DNA from: Salminus brasiliensis
Taxonomy: Eukaryota; Chordata; Actinopteri; Characiformes; Bryconidae
DNA length: 64,000 nucleotides
Reading direction: 5' to 3'
Assembly (NCBI RefSeq): GCF_030463535.1
Contig: NC_132878.1
Location: forward strand, 21,441,925 to 21,505,924
Shown: in pieces, positions 5,201 to 48,100 of the stretch
Numbering within the stretch: position 1 is the stretch's first letter
Layout: every line of letters starts with the position of its first letter
Position numbers and translations under genes: made by a program
Notes under the pieces: generated by a model
Seen by the model: only the letters and a program-made list of their open reading frames with translations
Databases searched by the model: none
Told to the model about the DNA's origin: nothing

Positions 5201-7202
5201 CTATTGGAATGATGTTGATGGTGCTTCATCCAAAATTTTTGCAATGAGTTGGAGAGTTGGGTATAAGGTGGGGTGGAGATCATCCAACATCCTGACCTAC
5301 TGACCTATTGCTTTAAATGCACTCTGATCCACAGTGACTGCAATCCAGCTCCACTCCCCTCCAGCCCGGACCCTCTCCATGCCCTGCCGGTATGATTACG
5401 AGGACCAGGGAAGTATCTCCCAGCTCTCGCTGCAGTGGAGAAGCCCCAGCAAGCAACTGCTTTGCCACTTCATCAAACACAAATCCTACAGGAACTGCAC
5501 AGCTGGCTACTCTGTGCTCTACGAGCCAGGGAACGTCACCCTGGTCATCGATGAAGTGAAGGAGGAGGATTTCGGGAGGCACGTGTGCTCCATCAGCAAG
5601 CGGCATGATTTCTCAGACTACAACATCGAGCTTGTGCGGGGGGCAGGTGGGTGCATGAAAATGATGCACGTTTGGTCCCTGCGTAACAGATTTCAGTTAA
5701 TCAACATGAAGCTACAACATTTTAGTTTTTTAGAAGCATCCAAAATGATTCATTGAGATGCAGATGATTCTCAAACAACTCAAAGATGCAGATCATTGAA
5801 TTGTAAATTAATTACAGTAAACGATAATTTAATACATTATTGTTCCAAAACAAGAATCAATCTTTTGATGTTTGGTTCATAAGTTAAATCTTTGTTCTAT
5901 GCTATCTTTATACAAAAAAACCAACTTGTGTTCCTGCTAATAATTAGCATTTATATCTGAACAGAATCTTCAACCACTCCACCAACGGACAAGGAGGAGC
6001 ACGCAGGTATGACTGATGCATTTCCACGGTCTTGAGCTTCTTTTTAAACCTACAGTCACAGGCAAGGGTTTGGGCCCCTAATCAAATTACATGTTTTGCA
6101 ATCCCCTAGACAGAACACTCCTGCACATGTTATTATACATACTATTGTTTATTCACTTAATTTAACACACAGGGGAAAAGAACATACAATTGTTAAGGCC
6201 CATCACATCACACAAAAAAGCTGTTCAGAACCACACTGGGAGTGCCAAACTAGACAAAAAAATCAGACCACGCTTCCCTACTCAGACTGTAAGTGTACTT
6301 TGCTACAGAATAAATGAAACAAAAGCTAACTACTCAAAACGTCCCTGATCAGTCATGAAAAAGTCAAGTAAAGTCAAATTTATTATTTATATATATTTAA
6401 TATATATATCTATTTTATTTTTTTTTTACAAATTTATATATATTATTATATATATACGATTAAATAAATCTAAAACCACAGCCAACTGTCCCAACCTGGG
6501 CCAGTATTAGGTGGTTGCTATAGTATTTTGTGTTGGTGCTAGGTGGTTGCTATGGTATTGGAGTGGGGGCTGGGATGTAGGCTGGTGTAACAGTGCAAAA
6601 CAACAACCAGAACAGAGCTGGTCTGGACGAGGATGGCGGATAAGTGGATCTGGTTCGTTTTTGGAACAGAGGAGCACAGAAATGTGTACCAGATATATTT
6701 GGAGTCCAGAATCCGGATCTGGACTGGATTTGGTCCGTTGTGCAAATGGACCCTGGATCAGATCTGTTTTGCATAATACCATAGATAATATATAGATAAT
6801 AAAACTTTTTGCTATCTGGGCATGCTCTTCCTTTTCAGCCATCTGTGCTCCTGCTTTTAAAGGTAAGGCTCCGTCCCTAATTGCACCAGCCAAGACCCTC
6901 TTGTGGTCAGTGGTCCTCACATGTTCCATGTGACTAAGCATGGAAGTAGACTTCAATGAAGCTGTCAAAGGGCGGGTAAAAGGGGTGTGAGCATTCAAGG
7001 TGTGGGAGAGTTTGGAGCAAAACCGGCACACACTTCACACTGCCTCACAGCCCTTCACCTGTATACCACACTGCTTAAACACCAAAATAACACATTTGCC
7101 ACAATGCTTGGTTTAACAGTTGCTGCTATTTTTGCTGTGCTGCTGCTAAAATGGAGAAGTGGCCAGTGGCAAAGAATTATTTCAAAGAAAATGACATATT
7201 AG
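2231..7202 (+). CDS. Small V-set immunoglobulin-domain membrane or secreted protein, unassigned (spliced gene)
   Basis: Proposed five-exon gene: 2231-2282, 5335-5646, 5965-6006, 6839-6862 and 7120-7202. All introns are phase 1, as is usual for Ig-domain genes, and the joined frame is 170 residues plus stop. Residues 1-20 (MPGLMLRLVPLCFIVLK...) form a signal peptide. Residues about 22-121 are one V-set domain, with B-strand Cys in SMPCRYDY, C-strand Trp in LSLQWRSP and F-strand Cys in DFGRHVC, where His replaces the usual Tyr. Two extra cysteines (LLCHF and YRNCT) could form a second disulphide. N-glycosylation sites are NCT and NVT. A Ser/Thr/Pro stalk follows. The C-terminal segment (VAAIFAVLLL then basic residues) resembles a short membrane anchor but is brief and interrupted upstream by Lys, so exons 4-5 may be wrong. 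It lies 4 kb upstream of nrgn on the same strand. I do not recognise the family; it does not look like VSIG2 or ESAM, which flank NRGN in mammals. Confidence 0.6.
2791..3162. mobile_element. Tc1/mariner-type miniature element, about 370 bp
   Basis: The ends are imperfect inverted repeats of about 40 bp: tacagttttatgcaaaa at the left, and the reverse complement of ttttgcataacactgt at the right, followed inwards by ggtcaaatta / tttgacca. The left end is TA-flanked. There is no transposase frame inside. It lies in intron 1 of the Ig gene. Related ends occur near 6051, 7646 and 23836. Confidence 0.65.
3298..3516. repeat. 219-bp duplicated unit, copy 1
   Basis: The stretch from agtataccatgtcat to catcatcatgac recurs almost unchanged at 4945-5163, with only a handful of substitutions or single-base indels. 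No coding sense or terminal inverted repeats are evident in the unit. Confidence 0.9.
3769..3905. repeat. Dispersed teleost repeat (aaggtgggcaat type)
   Basis: The segment opens with aaaggtgggcaattggggcc, which resembles a repeat found widely in fish genomes. It is non-coding. The family assignment is from memory and unverified. Confidence 0.4.
4809..5334. mobile_element. Family A non-autonomous TIR element, copy 1, interrupted by the 219-bp unit
   Basis: The left end (tacaccatatgtccaaatg, TA-flanked) and internal blocks (aatgaatgcatt, atgccaggtgtgggcta, gatcatccaacatcctgacc) match the other family A copies in this window. A block of about 75 bp (4862-4937) is repeated at 5164-5243, on either side of the 219-bp insert. 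The element's right part runs into the acceptor of the Ig V-set exon, where its end is lost. Confidence 0.7.
4945..5163. repeat. 219-bp duplicated unit, copy 2
   Basis: This is a near-identical copy of 3298-3516, in the same orientation, placed inside a family A element. The host element's sequence is duplicated on both sides. Confidence 0.9.
5335..5646 (+). CDS. Ig gene exon 2: V-set domain
   Basis: The exon of 312 bp is bounded by tgatccacag|TG and GGCAG|GTGGGT, phase 1 at both ends. It encodes a complete V-set fold with both core cysteines and the core tryptophan. Its GC content is clearly higher than its flanks, as expected for coding sequence. The 3' splice site looks transposon-derived (see findings). 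Confidence 0.85.
5965..6006 (+). CDS. Ig gene exon 3: Ser/Thr/Pro stalk
   Basis: The 42-bp exon lies between tctgaacag|AA and CACGCAG|GTATGA, with phase 1 on both sides. It encodes ESSTTPPTDKEEHA, a stalk-like, probably O-glycosylated segment. The reading frame is kept from exon 2. Confidence 0.55.
6839..6862 (+). CDS. Ig gene exon 4 (tentative)
   Basis: A 24-bp exon with a strong acceptor (ctcttccttttcag) and a perfect donor (AAAG|GTAAGG), phase 1-1, encodes AICAPAFK. It is very short and lies in sequence flanked by transposon-type ends, so it may be a chance match. Confidence 0.4.
7120..7202 (+). CDS. Ig gene exon 5: short hydrophobic C-terminus (tentative)
   Basis: After a weak acceptor (ggtttaacag), the frame continues VAAIFAVLLLKW followed by a basic tail and TAG at 7200-7202. 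The hydrophobic run is only about ten residues, short for a membrane helix. The real last exon may be elsewhere. Confidence 0.35.
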
Positions 7203-10029: not shown

Positions 10030-11045
10030 AGTTTAGCGGAGTGATAGAAAGAAGCTGATAGAAATAAAAGAGTTGATAAAAAGAAACGAGTTGATGAAAA
10101 GAAATGAATTGATAGAAAGAAATGAATTGATAGAAAGAAGCTGATAGAAATAAAAGAGTTGATAAAAAGAAACGAGTTGATGAAAAGAAATGAATTGATA
10201 GAAAGAAATGAATTGATAGAAAGAAGCTGATAGAAATAAAAGAGTTGATAGAAAGAAGCTGTTAGAAAGAAAAGAGTTGATAGAAAGAAGCTGATAGAAA
10301 TAAGAGTTGATAGAAAAAAAGAGTTGATAGAAATGAGCTGATAGAAATAAGAGTTGATAGAAAAAAATGAGTTGATAGAAATGAGCTGATAGAAATAAGA
10401 GTTGATAGAAAAAAATGAGTTGATAGAAAGAAGCTGATAGAAAGAAATGAGTTGATAGAAATGAGCTGATAGAAACAAGAGTTGATAGAAAGAAAAGAGT
10501 TGATAGAAAGAAGCTGATAGAAAAAATTAGTTAATAGAAATGAGCTGATAGAAATAAGAGTTGATAGAAAGAAGCTGATAGAAAGAATGAGTTAATAGAA
10601 ATGAGCTGATAGAAATAAAAGAGTTGATAGAAAGAAGCTGATAGAAAGAATGAGTTAATAGAAATGAGCTGATAGAAATAAAAGAGTTGATAGAAAGAAG
10701 CTGATGGAAAGAATGAGTTAATAGAAATGAGCTGATAGAAATAAAAGAGTTGATAGAAAGAAGCTGATAGAAATAAATGAGTTGATGAAAAGAAATAAGT
10801 TGATAGAAAGAAGCTGATAGAAATAAAAGAGTTGATAGAAAGAAAAGAGTTGATAAAAAAAGAAATGAGTTGATGAAAAGAAATGAGTTGATAGAAAGAA
10901 GCTGATAGAAATAAAATAGTTGATAAATCGAAATGAGTTGATAGAAAGAAATTAGTTGATAGAAATGAGCTTATAAAAATGACTTGATATAAAGAAATGA
11001 GCTGATATAAAGAAATGAGCTGATATAAAGAAATGAGCTGGCTTG
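10030..11045. repeat. About 1-kb GATAGAAA minisatellite upstream of nrgn
   Basis: Tandem units of about 16 bp alternate (gagttgatagaaagaa and gctgatagaaataaaa), giving a composite period near 32 bp. Small indels and unit variants (gatgaaaagaaa, gataaaaaga) occur throughout. The repeat lacks stop codons on the - strand, so it yields two long low-complexity open frames (9984-10478 and 10531-11055, rich in F, S, I, N, Y, Q, L) that I regard as artefacts. It ends about 380 bp before the nrgn start codon. Confidence 0.95.
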
Positions 11046-11300: not shown

Positions 11301-11421
11301 AGAGCAGAGCCCGCAGAGCAGAGAAGCAGCATCGAGATATTCACTACTGCTGTCACCTGAGGAGCAGTTCAACCTCATCTCCCATACCTTCATCTCCAGC
11401 ATATCTGCTTTCCACGTCGCT

Positions 11422-11436
11422 ATGGACTGTCGAAAA
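11422..11436 (+). CDS. nrgn: nrgn exon 1 (MDCRK)
   Basis: Five codons from ATG to a GTAGGT donor, phase 0. The MDC start is a neurogranin hallmark. The 5' UTR precedes it from roughly 11300. Confidence 0.85.
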
Positions 11437-14400
11437 GTAGGTGGAGATCTTTGTAAATTCTAAGAAAAAAAAAACTTTTGGTCAGGATTGTGTGCCTTCA
11501 CTTTTGCTTCTGAGCTCGACTGTAAAAACTGATGCACGTTATTTAAGTGAGTTTGTTTTATTGATTTGATCTGGGATGCACTGCGAAGTCACCTCATCAG
11601 TCATGTTCATCTGGCAGAGTGGAGCCTATATAAACCTCAGGACTGTACTAATGTATAAGTGTGTGCATCTGTAAGTGCTGAGCCCTTACATAACACTCAG
11701 CACTTAAGAGCTGTCTCTGTGTAATATGTGCTTCTTTGAGGTGACAGTCACTTTGCTAGCTGACTGTAATGTGGGAAATACAGTAGCCCACACCTAATGG
11801 AAAGAGTAGAATTTACATTTTTAAAAACTTAATTCTTATTTCATTTTCTGATTATTGTGAATTGGCAGATCATTAAGAGAAAATCTATGAGATATGATAT
11901 TGGGATATTGGTAAGTAATATTACAGTATGTCAAGCTAAATAAATTTGACTGTAAGGGATGTGATTAACGGTGTCTGGTATAACCTCCTTGACTAGTCTG
12001 TGTATCCTTTACATGCATTTGAAAAAAGTGGATTTTTTAAATGAGAAATTGCAGCTGTTCTATATTATATATTTTTATATTATATATATTATTTATATAT
12101 TATATTATATATTATATATTTTTCTCTCCTCATGCCCTTCCACAGTATGAAGAATTAAAGTGTAATGATCTTTCAGTGAGATATTGGTGGTTTGCTGACT
12201 TTAGCTGTATTTGTACAGAGCTTGAATTGAACTCTAATATGTAAGCTGGGGAAAACCACTAGAAGAAGAATTGCTGAGAGGAACCAAGCCTAAAAAGGGG
12301 AAACTATTTCTGACTGACATATAATTGATTTCTGCTGCACTTGACCCCAGAAGAGACACAAACAAGTGAACTCAAATAAATGCTCTTTCTCTGTCGACAA
12401 GGAAAGGAAAATCCAGCCTGTTTGCATACATGAAACTCTGGACGCTGGACACTGGAGCCTTCCTGTCTGAACAAAGATTGCAGATTTGAATCTGAAAATG
12501 CGTTTTTTCAGTGGTTGAAGCGATCTGCATGTTGGTGGTTGGAGGGTTAAAAAGAGGTTTAAGCTGAACTGATGTCCAGTACAGTAGAAACTCGACCAGC
12601 AAATTCCACAGTGGCGTTGTGGGGGCACTGGAAATTGCATTCTCTCTGTAGAGTTGCCTTGGCTGGAGTGACAGCCACTGCTGCTTAATTGGCTTTGTTC
12701 ATCTGTCACAATGTTTGGTAGGAAGAGAACAAAACTCCCCCAAACTGTCAAGCGACAGAACCGCCGTCCAGGTCCACCGACACAAAGCGTGTGGAGCTTT
12801 AAAAGAAGCTTCTTTGTTCTCTTTTGTTTAATGCTCTCCAGTGGCAGGAACACAAGCAGTCAGCGATGTTACACAAGGCGTCCTCTGCGTGGGTTTCTGA
12901 CTTGCGTGTTAGTAGGAGGGGCGCAGAACTTTCCAGAAACAGCAATTATCTGTGTATAATCCAAAGATGTGGCTTGTGACTGATGAGACAGATGGCCATT
13001 TGCATGTTCCAAATGGACGGGCTGCCATTTCTAATATCACACACACACACACACGCACACAAAATGCTCACAAGTGGAGTTCACACAGGATGTTTCTTGA
13101 TTGACCATTGGACTTGCCACCAGTGAGTGCAGGTCAGCTCTAGAGAGGCTGGTTGCTATGCACAATTCTTTACCCAGCTAATTAGCTAACACACACCTGA
13201 TATTAGCTTTTCTTTGAAAAGAATCGTCTGGCCAAAAATCAAATGGACATGATTCATTACTGACACCACATCCAGTCGATCAGCCAAGACATTTGATTTT
13301 AGCCTCTTTGGTTGAGAATGGGAGATGCTAGGCTAAGGTTGCTAACAAACACTGGAATTAGACTGTCACCAATCACAGCCAAATAAAATCACAGCCAAAA
13401 ATGTGTCTCAACCCAGTCAAAACATGTGATTTAGAGCACAGTATGACTTACTTCTTCTCATAGCTGAATGGGGGGGCATTCAGAGTAACCGGATCTACTT
13501 CAGCGCAGTATGTGGAAGTATTCCATGCACTGTGGTCCAGTTTAAAAGCAACAGTACTAAAGTGTAGGAGGTTATGCAAATCAGTAGAACAATAGAAATG
13601 CTCTAAATTACTTGGAATAAATGCTTATATTTCATTGCCTTCCATTCAAAGTTAAGAACATTTTGCCTTCTTCTGTAAAGTCACCATTTTGGATAGACAT
13701 GGTTTTCATTAGACAGCGACGATATAAGTGTAATGTAGCCGTAAAAATGTTGACCTGCCATTGCCTTTTGGAAAGGCTTTGAGACGAAAGACTACGGCAG
13801 GGCCATAGGTCTTGTTTGTTGTAAAATACATAATCATGTGTTTATCCCTCCGTAACAGCAGTGGAGCCTCGGAGGAGTGTCATGCTTCCTTCTCGCTTGG
13901 GTGGTTCCTCGCAAAGTTTGTCTGAGAAGCTCAGGCTACGCACATCCATGCTCCCCTAACAGCGGCACAACCCCCAGAGGGCAAGCCAAATTAGATGAGC
14001 TGTTGGAAACTTGAGCCCCAACAGGGACCGGTGGCATGGTCTGCCCCGGTGGGAGCGCAGAAGATGGTTCATAGTAAGCCATCAGGGAGGAAGTGTGATT
14101 TTAGCATCCTTGTAAGCTCATTAGATGTGCTGAAGCTAAAGGGAATTAGTGGAATTTCAGGGTCTATGGAACTGACTGCCTGTTTGTGTGAGTTGCATTG
14201 TTATGACATCAGGTGAAGGATGACACTGAGGTAGGGCTGTACATAGTTGGACAAAACAAACTAGAAAGCCTTTAAAACAACCTCAGTTCATATAATATGA
14301 AACTATAATGTGGTAAAATGTATACAAAGTCATACAAATACACAATGCCATCATAGAAACGTCACATGCAAAACTCTAGACCAGCTAGGGCCAATGAGTA

Positions 14401-17400
14401 TAAGGGAAATGTCAGCAGGAAAAAGGAAGATGTCAGCGGGGAAAAGAAAAACATTGGAAAATTAAAATGTCATCAATTAAATTCTTAAATAAGCAACCAA
14501 GAGGATGAATTTTGGAGAAATGGTTTGGTGAAAAATCTAATGTACACAATTTTTCACTTAACCCAGACATAGCCGATCAGCCAGGGTGTTTGGTGTCCAA
14601 ATTTGACTTCTTTAGTTTAGTGCTGGAGCTGCAAACATAACATAGCTAACAAACACCAAACATCAATAGTCAAACCTTTTCTGTTAATACGTACCCACAC
14701 AATTCTTTCAACCTGAGGTCTTCGTTAGGGTCACATAGACTTATATAAATGAACAACAAATTTCACTGTTCCCCTAGCTACACAGGTTTCATCAAGATAA
14801 GATAAAAGTGTGAGTATATATCAATGGAAAAGACTTGGGTAACTGTTTATTTCTGGACCCTGTTAACATTTGATCGCTCCATGTGACTACCATGATATTT
14901 AAAAACATTATCACAATACACAAGAGTTATCACAGATTTTGAAAACTGCTATCCAAACACTCTCCCATACAGTGCAGTGTACTTTAGTTTAACTACTAGG
15001 GCTGCATAGCACTGGGAAAAACTGACATTGCAACATTTTGTTGTTCTGCACAATATATTCAAATTTTAAATAATAAAATTTTCACCAGATTTTTCCATAA
15101 CTCAGTTATCCAACATGTCACAATATTAATAATGCACTCACGATTGGAGTAAAATAAATGATATTGGGCAGGTATAATCTGCCATTGGTAGATATATCAT
15201 GTGTCATGTGACTATTGCGATAGTGATGCTAAAAGGCTATATTGTGCAGCCCTAAAAATTACACTCTCTGTAATGAAAGCTGCAGTGGGTCAGTGTTATT
15301 TAAGTACTAACAATATCGAAGATACACTCATAAAGGCATACTGTGTATCACAATAATATAATTTATTTATCACAATAATATTTATATGAATATTTATCAC
15401 ATTTATATGAAATGTGATTACTGTGTTGGACAGAATATGCAAATTCTTTTGTTGCACTCAAATTATTACTGGTGTTTCAGATGAACTGGGAGGGGTTTCG
15501 GTTGTTGAATGTGTCTTGGAGAGATAGATGTGCTTACACTGCTATAACATGTGGCTCAAATGCATTTCAGACCACTTCCTGAGGTGTTTGGACTGATTGG
15601 ATTCGTATCTGGTTTAAATGCATAAGTGATAACAATATGGTTTTCTAAGCATATGCTTAGTGCTTAATAAACACTGATCCTCTGCAGGTTTCATTACTCA
15701 CAGTGTAATTAGACTGGTTTAATTAGACAAAGAGCAGCAGATTAGTTTATAAGAATCTGTCTCTACTGATGTTTTTAGTCTGTGATAAATATTGTGATAT
15801 AGTATCGCGAACAAAAGTATTTAAATATTGTGATATACTATTTTTTACCATCGACCAGCCCTAATCCTAATACTCAAGATGCATGAAGTAACCAGGTGTA
15901 AACACGGTGATGTTTTTTAAGATATTTTAACTTTTCAGCTCCAGCTGTAAAGAAGGTAAATGTGAACACAGTTTCTCTTGGCTGATCAATGACAACTGGA
16001 GGGAAAATAGTGTAAATTTGACTTTTCGCCAAACCAATTCTTTAACCGCTTACATACTGTAGTACTCTACACTCAAGTAGTGTAATGTTGAGTCAATGAA
16101 AGTCATTAAATAACGACTGCTGCTCTCATGTCAGATGAATTTCCATAAACACGTAATGAGATTTCACCCCAAATGTCATCTTCATTTCAGCTGTCACTGT
16201 TCATATGTGCTCACCAGATGGATCAGCAAGACATGACATGCTGTTGTGCCAGGAAGCGACCTTCTAAAGAGTCATGTGACAGATTTCTCCATAGTTTGTT
16301 CCTATTCTCACTCATGACCAATACAGCCATCCTTACTATGTGTTCCGACTATGTGTTCTCTAGGAGGGGTGCAGTCAGCCACAGGACGAGGATATCATGG
16401 ACATCCCTCTCGATGACCCAGCTGCCAACAAGGCCGCTACTAAGATTCAGGCTGGCTTTCGGGGCCACATGACCAGGAAGAAGATGAAGGATGACAAGCC
16501 TAGAGAAGAGGTGAGCACCACTGTTGCTGGCAGCCTGGCTACACAACATTGATTGTTCATTTGTAACAATCTGAAAGATATATAGACTGGATGATATTGA
16601 AGTCTTGATTTATTGGTATAGTCAACAATCCTGCCAGTAAAGCACTGATATTTATTGATAGGGTAACAAACTGACATTTCTGAGGTAAGGATACCCTTCA
16701 CTCTTAGGAACTACTTCAGTCTAGGCCATGTACAAGTCAGTTAAAACCACCAAATAGGCCGTCACTACCTGCACACTTCTTACACTGCATTACAGGCCGA
16801 AATTTGAGGACAATTTAATATGTGATTAAAATGATCATCCAAACATATGTGAATTATGTTATGCTCTGCTGTTAGATTTTCAGTCAACCTGACAGAAACA
16901 TTGAACTTTGGTACCTTATTAGATCATGCCCCTGATCATTTTAAGCACAACACATCCCATACATTTAAAACACATGATTCCTGTTTGTCCATCTGTAAAA
17001 CATCTTCTGATGCACCACAAATGTCATATTTCACCTGACCCTTCTACCTCCACCTGTCATTGAGAGAAAACACTCAGTTAGCCTTGATACACTACTGCTT
17101 GGAGATGCTTCTTGATACCCTCCTTCATACCCTTCATGATATCTTGACCCCAGCCATTTTACAGACCTTCCTTAATGTATAACAGTACAGAAGGAAAATG
17201 CAACTGACGGTTGACAATGCACAGGCAACTGTCAATCATATCAGTCGGTAAAGCTCTGTTTACTTAAATCTATTTAGTTCTTGACCATATTGGCCAACTT
17301 TATAAATATAAAAAAAATATATCCCCACACTTTTCTCTTCAGATTGGTCAGATCTTAAGCTGGGAGGATAAGAGCTACCATGACCTACCTCCAAATCATT

Positions 17401-20400
17401 TAAAGCACAACTTCAATGCGCCCGAACCCCTGATCTCCCAGTGATCGGGCCAGCGCTTAGATTGTTGCACCACTTGGATCACAAACCATTCCTATCTGTT
17501 AGGCCTGATTTACAGGACAAAGGAACTTGCTTTCACTCCTTGAACTCACAAACAAGAACCTGAATCTTGTGGGAATCTGGTAAACATTTGCTTTCTTCTC
17601 TGCATCACACAATTTTATGAGCACATGGCCACCTCCACAGTCGTTGCTAACCCTTTGAATGGAAATTTCCGTGGCTAATTGGCAAATTACCAAGCACTGA
17701 GCATACTTCCTCAAAACAACATCCTGCCCTGAACTGCTGTAGTTTGTTGTTTTCAAACACCTTTAGCCTTGTGGGAATCGGTTGTCCACTGATTATTGAC
17801 TCTGGAACACACCTGTGCCCCAAAGTTCCTTATTATTTATGTTTTTAACTTGAGAATCAACAAGAAGGCAATGGTACTAATTTTATTCTGAGTATTACCA
17901 CAGAATAAACTTTAGATCAAGCATATATGTTACAGCTGAAGGATCTCCTAAAATCTTATACTAATCTACAGATCATATGTGACAAACATTATAAGTGTTA
18001 CAAACTGTTGGGGCTACTGGAAGATCATTCATATCACTGGCTTTAACGCTTTCACTTTTTCTTCTTTTATGCTTGCTCGGTTGAAAATGTTCAGTTCTGG
18101 ACACATTTTCACACAAATTAGATCATATTCTCTACACAGCTGACTAACACCCCCAAACATGTTTTCCATCCTGCAAGGTTGGGCCTTGAGCAGAAGCACT
18201 CTATTCAGTTAATGTCTCAGAATAGCCACAAGAAGATGGTTAGAGTGCTTTATACAACTTTCAAAAGCGAACAGTGAAGCCAGACAGTACTTTACTGCTG
18301 TAGAAACACTGTCTCCTGGACAAAAAAAAGTAAAGTATAATATAGTCAGTACCTTAAATGTACATAGGTATTATACTGCACATTTTTATCAGCAGCATAG
18401 ATGTTCATTGGACTCTATAGGCCATGTTCTTGTCTAGCTTTTTAATAGAAATCCTTTTTAGTTCGGGTGGCTTATTGGAAACAGCAGAAAATGTTGGATC
18501 AGATATCACATTGAAAAAAAACAAATGTGATCCAATCATGTAATAATAATAAATCAAGCTTGAAATAGCAGATAAACTATAAACTGTCATTAGCTGTGTG
18601 TTTGATCCTGTGAGGTATTAGAGCATTTGAGTATGATAGTCTACTTTTAGATGCTCATTTTAAGTGAAGTGCCTGAATATCTCTATCCGTATCAAAAAAA
18701 AAAAAAAAAAGCGACAGTCTCTCTGAACCTGGGAACCTGACCATATAGATGTTCACCTTCACATACAGTACCTGGCAAACAGGTGTTTGGACACACCTGG
18801 TTGAATGTGGGCTGATCATCATCTTAAAAGCACTTGATCCAAATGCTAGAGTCACCATTTATTTATTTATTTATTTATTTATTTATTTTTGTTAAAGAGG
18901 ACAATGGGACACATGGGTATCCATCATAGTTAGGATGTTGAGACGACACAACATCCTAACTGCAGTGGACACCTGTGTGTCCCTAATGTGTGTCCCTGTT
19001 TTTTTTATTAGTGCATAAAACACTATTTGTTATGTCAGGTACAGAAGAGACATCATAGATTTTTATTGTCATTATCTTCAATGCAGAGGTTACAGTATTA
19101 CTGTAGATGGATGACATGTTATTCATGTAATGGAGAATTGATGGAAAATTCGGCCACTGATCACCATGGTCAGCTGAACGTTCTGACAAGAGTTCAAACT
19201 TCCTAACTTTTACTGTCGACCGCAGAGGTGAAATAATCCAGATGTTTGTGAGCGGGGCTCTCTTAGTAAAAGTCCGGGCGTATCTGCTCACGTTCAACAG
19301 GGCCCACACTTAAACACTGTCTTGCAGTTAGAAACATCAAGGTGTGTATGAAACACTTTCTGGATAAAGTAATACTAAACAGTGCACACAGCTAGCCATG
19401 CCACAGCTATTGCAGTAGTAGATGGTAATGCAACATTTTATGTATTTTGTGTTTTATGTAAATTGTGTTTCCTAACAAACACAATACAGAACATAAAACT
19501 GTGTAAATCAGAACATTCTAGTATAATGCTAGGTGTTAATTCCATAGCCTGGTAAATATCATTTTCAGTGTATTGGTCACACCTTCATAAAGCTCCAGTT
19601 TTTAAAACTTTTAGCTCAAATATCAGTTGCTTGGATTAAAGTAAAGCAAAAATGTATTTTTTCTTACAGTTTAGGCTGGTCATCCAGTTAATCAGGGACT
19701 TCTGAATGCAGTAATTAGCTGCCTCAGGTGGAGTGGACCCAAACTCTGCAGGGTGGTTTGGAGGGCACTGGTGTGGCTAGTTATTTCAATGTTTCTCTTG
19801 AGAAACAATGAACGTTCAAATGTATGCCTTATGTTCTACTATGACTTATGCAAAAGATAAAATTCCCCTTCTAATCATAAAATTGCTTAGCTTTGTTTTG
19901 TTTTTGTCCAGTTTTGGACAAAAAAAAATATAACATGCTGCAGTGTAACTTTCTCACAGTATCATATTCATCACATGTTAAGTTGGGTGTTAACTGAAAA
20001 CTCTAGGACAAGCCGTGTTTAAGCACTGAGAAAAGCAACATTTGTCTTGTTTTCACACTTTGAAGTTGCAATTCACATTGTCACCTCATTTACACTTAGT
20101 TTTCTTCCGTTCAGATTGCACTTGATGCTCAGCATGGTACTGGTTTATTAAAGCTCTTCAGAGCAGTGTTCCTGATTAGCCTTGTCGCTCTGTAGCTGAA
20201 CCACACACACAGGTTTTCCTATCATTTATCTCTGGTTGCTCCGTTCACAGCAAAGGGCGCAAAGCCAGCAGGGGAAAAGGTTTGACAGGTTTCTGTCAGA
20301 GGGACGATTGGGATTCCATAGGAAGGACTTTAATAAATTACTCTTTGGAGAATTTTCTTCCTGGGATCAATATCTCCCCCATAGACCTCACTGTAGCTGG

Positions 20401-22952
20401 AACGGTATCCTAGCAATGCCGCCTTAATTACTTGTTGCTAGGCAATAATACAGATGGTACCCAGTTAATGTCATGGGAGCAGCATCTCACCCTTTTTATT
20501 TATGCACTGTAAATACTTACTATGCGCCTTTGCTTAAAAAGCAATGTGTTTTATATGCATTTCATGATTTTTTTGCTGAAAATGCCCCAAAGAGTCTATA
20601 GTACCACAATCTACAGTATAACACAACTAATTTCTCAGAAATATGCTTACAAGTATCTTTTGTATACACTATTTATATTCTATTGATGCACCATAATGTT
20701 TTTGTAGTTGATAATACCACTATTACAGTTTACACATAATAAGAAAATTTAATATTACTCAACAATAATAATATTTAGTTGTTTTGTTTAAGCAATATAT
20801 ATATATATAATGCTAATGTACCTTTGCTTTAACCATTTACATTTTTGTTTACATTTTTGTTTACATTGTTTTATAATCTTTATATATGCTTTTACATGGT
20901 TATTGTACTTTTCTAATGTTTATAAGGCTGCATTACAATAATCTATATTTTTTGTACATCTCTATGTTAATGACACAATACAAATGATTGAAATTTGACC
21001 CTTTTCAAGAAATTATTGTTTTATTCGATTTACATATGACTGTATAACACTGTTATTGCGTGCAAATTGTTAAACAGATGCAGTGGCATACAAATGTTTT
21101 GGCATCCTTGGTAAAATATTTCTGTGACTGCCAATTGCAAAAAGAGGTAAATTACCCAAAAATAAAGGCTAAAAGCGTTGAGGTAGAAATGACACATTAA
21201 TATTTTAAGATTACTGGTTCGAATAACGATATAAGAAATGGGCTTGAATCACATGTTAAGGTACTCTGCATGGTGAGTACGTAGTAACCTATTTGGCAAG
21301 TATTGTAGCTTGCAAACACTTGTAGCCAGCTAAGAATCTTCTAATTCTAGGCTTCTAAAACTGCTCTTTTAAGGTCAGATTTTTAATGATGTTTAGGTCA
21401 GGGTACTGTGAGGGCCATGACAAAACCTTTAGCTCATGACTCTTGAGATAGTCCATTGTGGATTTTGAGATGTTTTTAGGATCATTATCCTGTTGTAGAA
21501 GCCATCATCTTTTCATCTTCAGCTTTGTTACAGGTGGTAAGATGTTTGCTTTCAGAACTTACTGGTATTTAATGAACCCATTCTTCACTATACCAGTGAG
21601 ATGTTCCCTGTACCACCGACTGTAACACAACCCTAAAGCATGATCAATTCACCACTGTGCTTAAAAGCCAGAGTGGTGTTTTATAAAGTTCTGTATCCTT
21701 TTTTGAGGTACAGCGACCTGAAAAGACTTTGTTAACATATATTAGTGCTATCGTCTATCAGTTTTCATATTGCTAGGCAGCTGCTTAGAGGAGCCAATGG
21801 CATTATTTTGCCATTGAAATCAAAATTTGTATCACCTGGCTTTTCCAATGATGACAATGAACAAGCCATAACAAGCTAATTAAGACTGTGGTAAAATGTA
21901 TCCAATAGCTTAAATCTAATGCAGTGCCCAAACTTTTAAATTGCTTTTGCTTTATTTACTCAAAACTTGTAAAAAGACAAAAATAATACAGTTATAAAGT
22001 AATAATACAGTTACAGCAACAGAAATTTTGACCAGGTCTGCCCAAATGTTTGCAAGCCACTGTATACCAATATACATACCACTAGCATGGTCTACAACAC
22101 AGTTCCAGGAATAATGAAAACAGGCGAGGGTATGGAATATATCCCTGCTGTCTAATGAAAAAAATGAAAATATTTAAATATCTAAATATTTAGATTTTTT
22201 CATTGTTTGAAGCCTGTTGCTGCTCTTTACACGGTGTAAATATTTCTGTATGAATAGACCAATAGAAATGCTGTAACTGACTTGGAATTAAGTCTTATAT
22301 TACATTGACTTTTATTCAAAATTAATCACATTTTGGCCTTCTTTTGTAAAGTCGTCATTTTGGAGTTACATGTTTTTCATTGGACAATGACAATATAAAG
22401 ATTTTGTTTTACTCTTCATACAAAATCTTCCATATTGGAAAATGCTCAGTTGCCACCAGTATCCTGCAAGACGTATCCTGCAAAGTATTAACATTGTAGT
22501 TGTGATCTTATGTGGAAGCTATTTGTACTGGTAGACCGCTGATAGAATGTAATTCTGTTAAAACACAATGTCAGTCTCAATGCATGTTAAACTCATGCAT
22601 CTCAGAACTTTAGAAGGAAGGACATGAATGTATATTAATGTAGCATTTTTGTTTCCTTGCAATTTGGGACCATTTCTGTGGGTCCATTAGTCATGGAATA
22701 TTCACACAATGTAAAGGCCATCTGGTGTTCTAATGATGTAAAGAAAAAAATAAAATAACAGAAGAAACTGAGCTGCAAGGTTTTGGTATGACAGTGGCAA
22801 TTTCATAATATTCAAATCTAGGCTGAACGTGTTTACTTTGAAGTGTTCTGGGTTTTCATTTTGCTTTCATTTGCTGTGCATGATTTTATGCAACATGTCA
22901 CAAGCTCATAGTGGTCCTGTCTCTGTTCCAGAAACAAAGAGAGCAGAAGTAG
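11422..22952 (+). CDS. nrgn: Neurogranin (calmodulin-binding IQ protein), spliced gene
   Basis: Neurogranin binds calcium-free calmodulin in postsynaptic spines and tunes calcium/calmodulin signalling; mammalian protein is a PKC substrate. Proposed exons are 11422-11436, 16364-16510 and 22932-22952, all phase 0, giving 60 residues. Exon 1 encodes MDCRK, matching the five-codon first exon of mammalian NRGN. Exon 2 carries the acidic [12 protein letters not shown] segment (residues about 13-24) and the IQ motif [14 protein letters not shown] (residues 32-45). Conserved cysteines are Cys3 and Cys8. Residue 36 is Gly; mammals have Ser36, the PKC site, there. The protein lacks the Gly-rich C-terminal tail of mammals (78 residues in human). 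The last exon is inferred from a strong acceptor. If the exon 2 donor were not used, 13 extra codons would be read to a TGA at 16550-16552. Confidence 0.88.
12053..12123. repeat. AT-rich tattatat tract
   Basis: About 70 bp of nearly pure A/T with a loose tatatta period, inside nrgn intron 1. Confidence 0.8.
13560..13745. repeat. Dispersed repeat, pair with 22250-22405
   Basis: Shared strings include caatagaaatgct, acttggaat, attcaaagttaa/attcaaaattaa, ttgccttcttctgtaaagtc and cattttgga. A reverse-oriented fragment occurs near 29515-29550. Non-coding, in nrgn intron 1. Confidence 0.75.
14997..15254. mobile_element. hAT-like miniature element with tagggctgca ends
   Basis: The left end tagggctgcatag and the right end attgtgcagcccta are inverted copies. 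This end sequence, with internal cgatat-like strings, is characteristic of miniature hAT-type elements of vertebrates. It is about 258 bp with no coding capacity. Confidence 0.65.
15470..15595. repeat. Dispersed repeat, pair with 46425-46530
   Basis: Both copies carry ttcggttgt, cttggagaga, ttacactgctataacatgtgg and tcaaatgc in the same order. Function unknown. Confidence 0.8.
16364..16510 (+). CDS. nrgn: nrgn exon 2 (acidic segment and IQ motif)
   Basis: The exon runs from tgttctctag|GAG to AGAAGAG|GTGAGC, 49 codons, phase 0. It encodes the whole calmodulin-binding region. The GC content rises sharply over the exon. Confidence 0.95.
18906..18983. repeat. Fold-back element with a perfect 12-bp stem
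   Basis: gttaggatgttg (18929-18940) and caacatcctaac (18949-18960) are perfect inverted repeats around an 8-nt loop. The pairing extends outward imperfectly to ggacacatgg / ctgtgtgtcc, giving a hairpin of about 76 bp. Confidence 0.75.
20160..20480. promoter_or_regulatory. Candidate conserved non-coding element in nrgn intron 2, with an RFX-type X-box
   Basis: The block lacks recognisable repeats and is less AT-rich than its surroundings. It contains gttgctaggcaat at 20434-20446, close to the RFX X-box consensus (GTTRCC...RGYAAC). Enhancer activity is only an inference. Confidence 0.3.
21081..22064. mobile_element. Tc1-like transposon, decayed, about 980 bp
   Basis: The left end cagtggcatacaaatg and the reverse complement of the right end (cagtggcttgcaaaca) are matching terminal inverted repeats, with TA at the right. 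The interior on the - strand is a broken transposase (separate entry). It is inserted in nrgn intron 2. Confidence 0.85.
21340..21715 (-). pseudogene. Tc1-like transposase remnant
   Basis: Reading the - strand gives recognisable Tc1/mariner transposase blocks: [16 protein letters not shown], then [16 protein letters not shown], then [11 protein letters not shown], covering part of the DDE catalytic domain. Premature stops and a truncated reading frame show it is dead. The central Asp of DND and the SQYPDLN block are still readable. Confidence 0.85.
22250..22405. repeat. Dispersed repeat, pair with 13560-13745
   Basis: Same string order as the copy in nrgn intron 1, with roughly 75-80 percent similarity by eye. 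Same orientation. Confidence 0.75.
22932..22952 (+). CDS. nrgn: nrgn exon 3, last coding codons (proposed)
   Basis: A strong acceptor (gtcctgtctctgttccag) continues phase 0 with KQREQK and then TAG at 22950-22952. The following 470 bp are repeat-poor and end with AATAAA, as expected for a 3' UTR. Mammalian NRGN also has downstream exons beyond exon 2, although there they are 3' UTR. No transcript supports this. Confidence 0.55.
   Translation, partial: KQREQK

Positions 22953-35646: not shown

Positions 35647-48100
<12,454 letters not shown>

Follow-up and report, generated by a model that had tools for sequence, protein, structure and literature searches.

Phosphorylation of Ser36 in neurogranin is the textbook link between protein kinase C (PKC) and calmodulin at synapses. 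In the two-step model of the mammalian protein, calcium frees calmodulin and PKC phosphorylation then prevents its quick rebinding (PMC4471661). The mammalian S36A mutant matches the wild type in calmodulin binding whereas S36D fails to bind (PMC4471661), and calmodulin levels are raised by S36A and not by S36E or I33Q (PMC13073677). Ala or Gly at the site reportedly prevented PKC phosphorylation in work on Xenopus (Cohen 1993, cited in PMC11043121). Fish neurogranins without Ser36 are natural S36G proteins.

In the red-bellied pacu (Piaractus brachypomus), NRGN is a 183-nt gene encoding 60 amino acids (GenBank OQ344271), with a mass of 6945.87 Da, a pI of 7.77, 13 acidic and 14 basic residues, a GRAVY of -1.59 and an instability index of 43.34 (PMC11043121). 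The same paper already reports the change of Ser36 to Gly, which according to its authors had been noted before in zebrafish and further teleosts. It finds six substitutions between the human and pacu IQ motifs, singles out position 46 (human Ile, pacu Met) as the only key residue to be changed, and asks for biochemical tests. The identity between pacu and Colossoma appears in it both as 100% and as 89%, which is not wholly consistent (PMC11043121). Zebrafish is said to carry two neurogranin paralogues (PMC9618489, PMC11084468), three neurogranin peptides being reported from two genes (PMC9618489). Primers for zebrafish nrgna (ENSDART00000057910) are found in PMC4177677, and the mapping of salmon NRGN is treated in PMC2386828. 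Among the matches listed from the open-licence literature, we found no PKC or calmodulin assay performed on a fish neurogranin, and the papers listed in a search on gar, shark and further fish species did not mention neurogranin. According to the pacu paper, it is Alba-Gonzalez 2022 that reportedly documents the Ser36 substitution in zebrafish. The Gly36 substitution is known from pacu, zebrafish and other bony fish and, since it is in print already, is not new; the value of the locus described below lies in the comparison of paralogues and in protein function. Our additions are a second Gly neurogranin beside a paralogue of exons that we take to be hepacam-like, and a GAP-43 that keeps the serine.

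Gene structure and the glycine at residue 36

We analysed a stretch of 64,000 nucleotides from Salminus brasiliensis (contig NC_132878.1), called the window hereafter. The gene at 11422-22952 is, by its sequence, a neurogranin of the nrgna type in the ordinary teleost form (Table 1), with a joined CDS of 183 nt and 60 codons. The codons of exon 1, ATG GAC TGT CGA AAA (ATGGACTGTCGAAAA), are followed by GTAGGT. Exon 2 is bordered by TCTCTAG upstream and GTGAGC downstream (acceptor AG at 16362-16363, donor GT at 16511-16512), and the last coding piece, AAA CAA AGA GAG CAG AAG TAG, is preceded by TTCCAG. The initial annotation had supposed a first exon of five codons and, on that numbering, glycine instead of the PKC serine at residue 36. 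The exon was confirmed, the residue number proved right in the joined CDS, and the glycine stands as GGC in a complete 60-codon gene.

Short start patterns were no better than chance: a 13-base pattern with up to 2 mismatches gave 1 match where 1.10 were expected, and a degenerate pattern gave 2 where 3.14 were expected. The exon 1 call therefore rests on the full 20-base match of the pacu forward primer (20/20 bases at 11412). The pacu reverse primer matched 20 of its 21 bases at 22947, a site that was matched in 0 of 100 shuffles when up to 3 mismatches were allowed. The gene thus has the short initial coding exon (five codons, phase 0 junction), and the neurogranin-specific segment DIxDIPLDDP precedes the IQ motif. 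Mammalian neurogranin also has a first exon of five codons.

Table 1 Positions of the features discussed (window coordinates unless a contig is given)
Feature	Position	Strand	Details
Neurogranin coding exon 1	11422-11436	+	Five codons, MDCRK; donor GTAGGT
Neurogranin coding exon 2	16364-16510	+	147 nt, residues 6-54, IQ motif inside
IQ calmodulin-binding motif	16430-16489	+	Residues 28-47; Pfam PF00612, E 2.4e-7
Thr31 codon	16439-16441	+	Predicted PKC site (PMC11043121); Ala in second paralogue
Codon 36	16454-16456	+	GGC, Gly; aligned with the PKC serine of mammals
Thr42 codon	16472-16474	+	Predicted PKC site (PMC11043121); Thr in second paralogue too
Neurogranin last coding piece	22932-22952	+	Residues 55-60, KQREQK, and stop TAG
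Two Ig-domain exons	40261-41155		V-set, then Ig_3 (Pfam)
Second neurogranin, exon 1	C11:20184379-20184365		Likely, MDCHI; chosen by eye, a single loose match
Second neurogranin, exon 2	C11:20183004-20182852		Protein query and codon comparison

The match to PF00612 reached 30.4 bits against a cut-off of 20.3, and the profile match in the genome lies at G000:C1:21458354-21458413. The motif aligns with those of neurogranin (PDB 4E50, KIQASFRGHM) and neuromodulin (4E53, KIQASFRGHI); to judge from the sequence, this resemblance is not due to chance. Ser occupies the residue-36 column in both of these calmodulin-complex motifs. The serine of the PKC-switched calpacitins known in mammals, RC3/neurogranin and GAP-43 (Ser36/Ser41 column), is absent in the window neurogranin, where GGC encodes Gly.

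Two further observations concern the surroundings of these exons. Unspliced at GTGAGC, the exon 2 frame would continue for 13 codons to a stop (window 16511-16552). Just upstream of exon 1, an array of about 1 kb (10042-11037) consists of degenerate repeats of 14-38 bases, whose units resemble TGATAGAAAGAAGCTGATAGAAAGAAAAGAGT and which yield, as a mechanical by-product, long reading frames on the minus strand.

The second neurogranin and GAP-43 of the same genome

The exon-2 protein was used as a query against the genome from which the window comes (1.07 Gb in 103 contigs) and returned 10 matches with 10 of 10 candidates scored, the window itself included. Contig C11 carries a second neurogranin (85% identity, E 1.4e-17) and GAP-43 (E 4.0e-6). 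The seven other matches were weak, with E values between 0.096 and 6.9; four lie in one gene on C5, and one of the seven, L013, had no IQ pattern in a script scan. In the PKC-serine column the codon of the second neurogranin is GGT, Gly, and GAP-43 (C11:38073862) keeps Ser as AGC. The name GAP-43 is based on the sequence and on a Neuromodulin_N match of 25.8 bits, which is just below the Pfam cut-off of 27. The GAP-43 of this fish reads GHIIRKK (L010 1546-1581), with Ile for Thr compared to GHITRKK in the 4E53 peptide.

A second neurogranin with the serine, named in the initial annotation as a finding that would speak against it, was sought genome-wide and not found, the second copy having Gly. 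We also used a serine-carrying query, a fragment of human neurogranin, and its 3 matches were the window exon (E 1.6e-10), the second paralogue (E 2.4e-11) and GAP-43 (E 0.0143). With this query no Ser-bearing neurogranin copy was found in this assembly, whose missing or masked stretches are invisible to such a search. A genome search with the Pfam IQ profile, for which 150 of 240 candidates were scored, gave 7 matches with the window gene among them and listed neither GAP-43 nor the second neurogranin; it is therefore a poor detector.

For the second neurogranin, a single simple pattern did not reveal a third exon; the only pattern match, 28.6 kb away, was rejected as not credible. Exon 2 of this gene (L009) has two possible donors 46 bases apart, GAG/GTGAGC (C11:20182852) and ACAG/GTCAGT (C11:20182806), whose alternative use could yield two forms, one short and one longer.

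Ig-protein genes such as HEPACAM mark the conserved neighbourhood looked for around neurogranin. The two Ig-domain exons of the window, presumably hepacam-like, matched contactins alone in a PDB search (E 2.9e-4 and 5.4e-4). A paralogue 78% identical to the Ig exon at window 40360-40698 is located at C11:20168562-20168897, about 14 kb from the second neurogranin. We read the neurogranin and Ig-exon pairs on the two contigs as a duplicated block. Elsewhere in the window, an Ig-like exon at 5328-5756 has CD276 as its best PDB match (E 2e-10) and a weak Pfam V-set match (E 0.062).

Probable calmodulin binding, alternative readings and the age of the change

The key calmodulin-binding residues listed in the pacu paper (PMC11043121) are present in the window protein at I33, F37, R38, H40, M41, R43, K44, K45 and K47, and position 46 is Met as in pacu. 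A Gly36 neurogranin would most likely bind calmodulin at low calcium via the intact IQ core, and upon a rise in calcium the fish protein would most likely release it without a PKC step. We infer that it would not be switchable by PKC at position 36, and that PKC therefore could not keep neurogranin off calmodulin afterwards. In terms of the two-step model, the Gly protein would retain the first (calcium) step and lack the second (PKC) step at this position. Switchless calmodulin binding would hold likewise for the second paralogue. The loss of the PKC switch, as proposed in the initial annotation, may reasonably be derived from the mammalian S36A mutants. Considered as a whole, the explanation that Gly36 neurogranin binds and releases calmodulin by calcium, without a PKC switch at residue 36, appears likely to us. 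Glycine may, however, make the helix less stable and calmodulin binding weaker as a result. On its own, neurogranin is probably disordered.

One could ask whether the glycine is real, since a single base change (AGC to GGC) arising from a sequencing or assembly error or from a private variant would be enough to produce it. This is hardly credible and is already refuted by independent sequences: in pacu, Gly36 comes from cDNA amplicons read by Sanger sequencing (PMC11043121), a zebrafish nrgna primer has Gly in the same column, and the second paralogue encodes it with another third base. Restoration of Ser36 by RNA editing was rejected by reasoning: with G already encoded in the genome, A-to-I editing has no way of turning GGC into AGC. 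The switch might instead have moved within the motif, such that phosphorylation of Thr42 (or Thr31) by PKC continues to release calmodulin. Software does predict PKC sites at both threonines in pacu (PMC11043121), and Thr42, which precedes the basic RKK, is kept in both paralogues of this genome. However, the second copy and zebrafish nrgna have Ala in place of Thr31, which is therefore no general substitute for Ser36. The neuromodulin IQ peptide of 4E53 has threonines at both places (AATKIQASFRGHITRKK), yet a review names Ser41, and neither threonine, as the PKC site of neuromodulin (PMC7494789), and the Thr42 column is Ile in the GAP-43 of this fish. We thus regard a moved switch as unlikely, with Thr42 as a possible stand-in of low probability.

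The effect of the substitution may also be physiologically minor if GAP-43, or an undetected neurogranin copy, carries the serine-type switch in these neurons. GAP-43 has kept its AGC serine, and neurogranin-like staining in zebrafish was reported in cell bodies and fibres (PMC9618489), but GAP-43 seems presynaptic in mammals (PMC9618489), the second neurogranin is Gly as well and no Ser copy was found in the assembly. Although compatible with a switchless Gly36 at the molecular level, such compensation seems improbable to us, and we retain the reading of calcium-controlled binding without PKC at residue 36.

As the second paralogue also has Gly, the serine-to-Gly change probably predates the duplication of the two neurogranins; a single change ahead of the duplication would fit the glycine of both copies and of zebrafish nrgna. 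The more specific proposal, that a single loss of the PKC switch preceded the teleost genome duplication and that both daughter genes kept the switchless form, is made tentatively, our confidence falling slightly short of even. The dating draws on teleosts only, namely two copies in one genome and one primer from zebrafish. Of the 49 codons aligned between the paralogue exons, 30 are the same, 11 show a synonymous difference and 8 encode another residue. Only 11 of the 41 same-residue codons and 3 of 11 fourfold sites are thus affected by a difference. We judge this divergence to be low for an old duplication. With so few differences, gene conversion between the paralogues, or constraint, is possible, and conversion would weaken the dating.

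Comparison with described IQ proteins

The window protein (computed molecular weight 6945.81, pI 7.77, 13 acidic and 14 basic residues, GRAVY -1.59, instability index 43.34) agrees with pacu NRGN in length, molecular weight, pI, charge counts, GRAVY and instability index, and both have Thr31, Gly36, Thr42 and Met46 (PMC11043121). Given the matching physical values, they are in all likelihood one and the same protein. This comparison is one of printed values and primers, with a difference of one base in the reverse primer site. Zebrafish nrgna primers encode MDCRNE, AKIQAG (read by reverse-complementing a primer) and QREPK-stop (PMC4177677). Within these primer regions only, Gly is in the same column as in the window, and zebrafish has N for K at residue 5, Ala for Thr31 and P for Q near the end.

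Among more distant proteins, an exon at C28:28360645, which by resemblance we take to be PCP4/PEP-19-like, had no Pfam match. PCP4/PEP-19 (2N77) has a single IQ motif and a preceding acidic stretch as in the window protein, but differs in having Gln in the Ser column and the core AIQNQFRRFQ. Mammalian neurogranin (RC3; 4E50 peptide) has the IQ motif in common with the window protein, with Ser36 and Ala42 in place of Gly36 and Thr42. It has the DIPLDDP segment, as in the window protein, and a Gly-rich tail. The mammalian protein is 78 residues long (PMC11043121) and the window protein 60. Neuromodulin/GAP-43 (4E53; C11:38073862) shares the IQ motif AATKIQA-FRGH, but unlike the window protein it keeps the Ser, has a long acidic tail and is without DIPLDDP. 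If the single loss before duplication is true, teleost neurogranin would be a calcium-only calmodulin store, and GAP-43 would keep the PKC arm.
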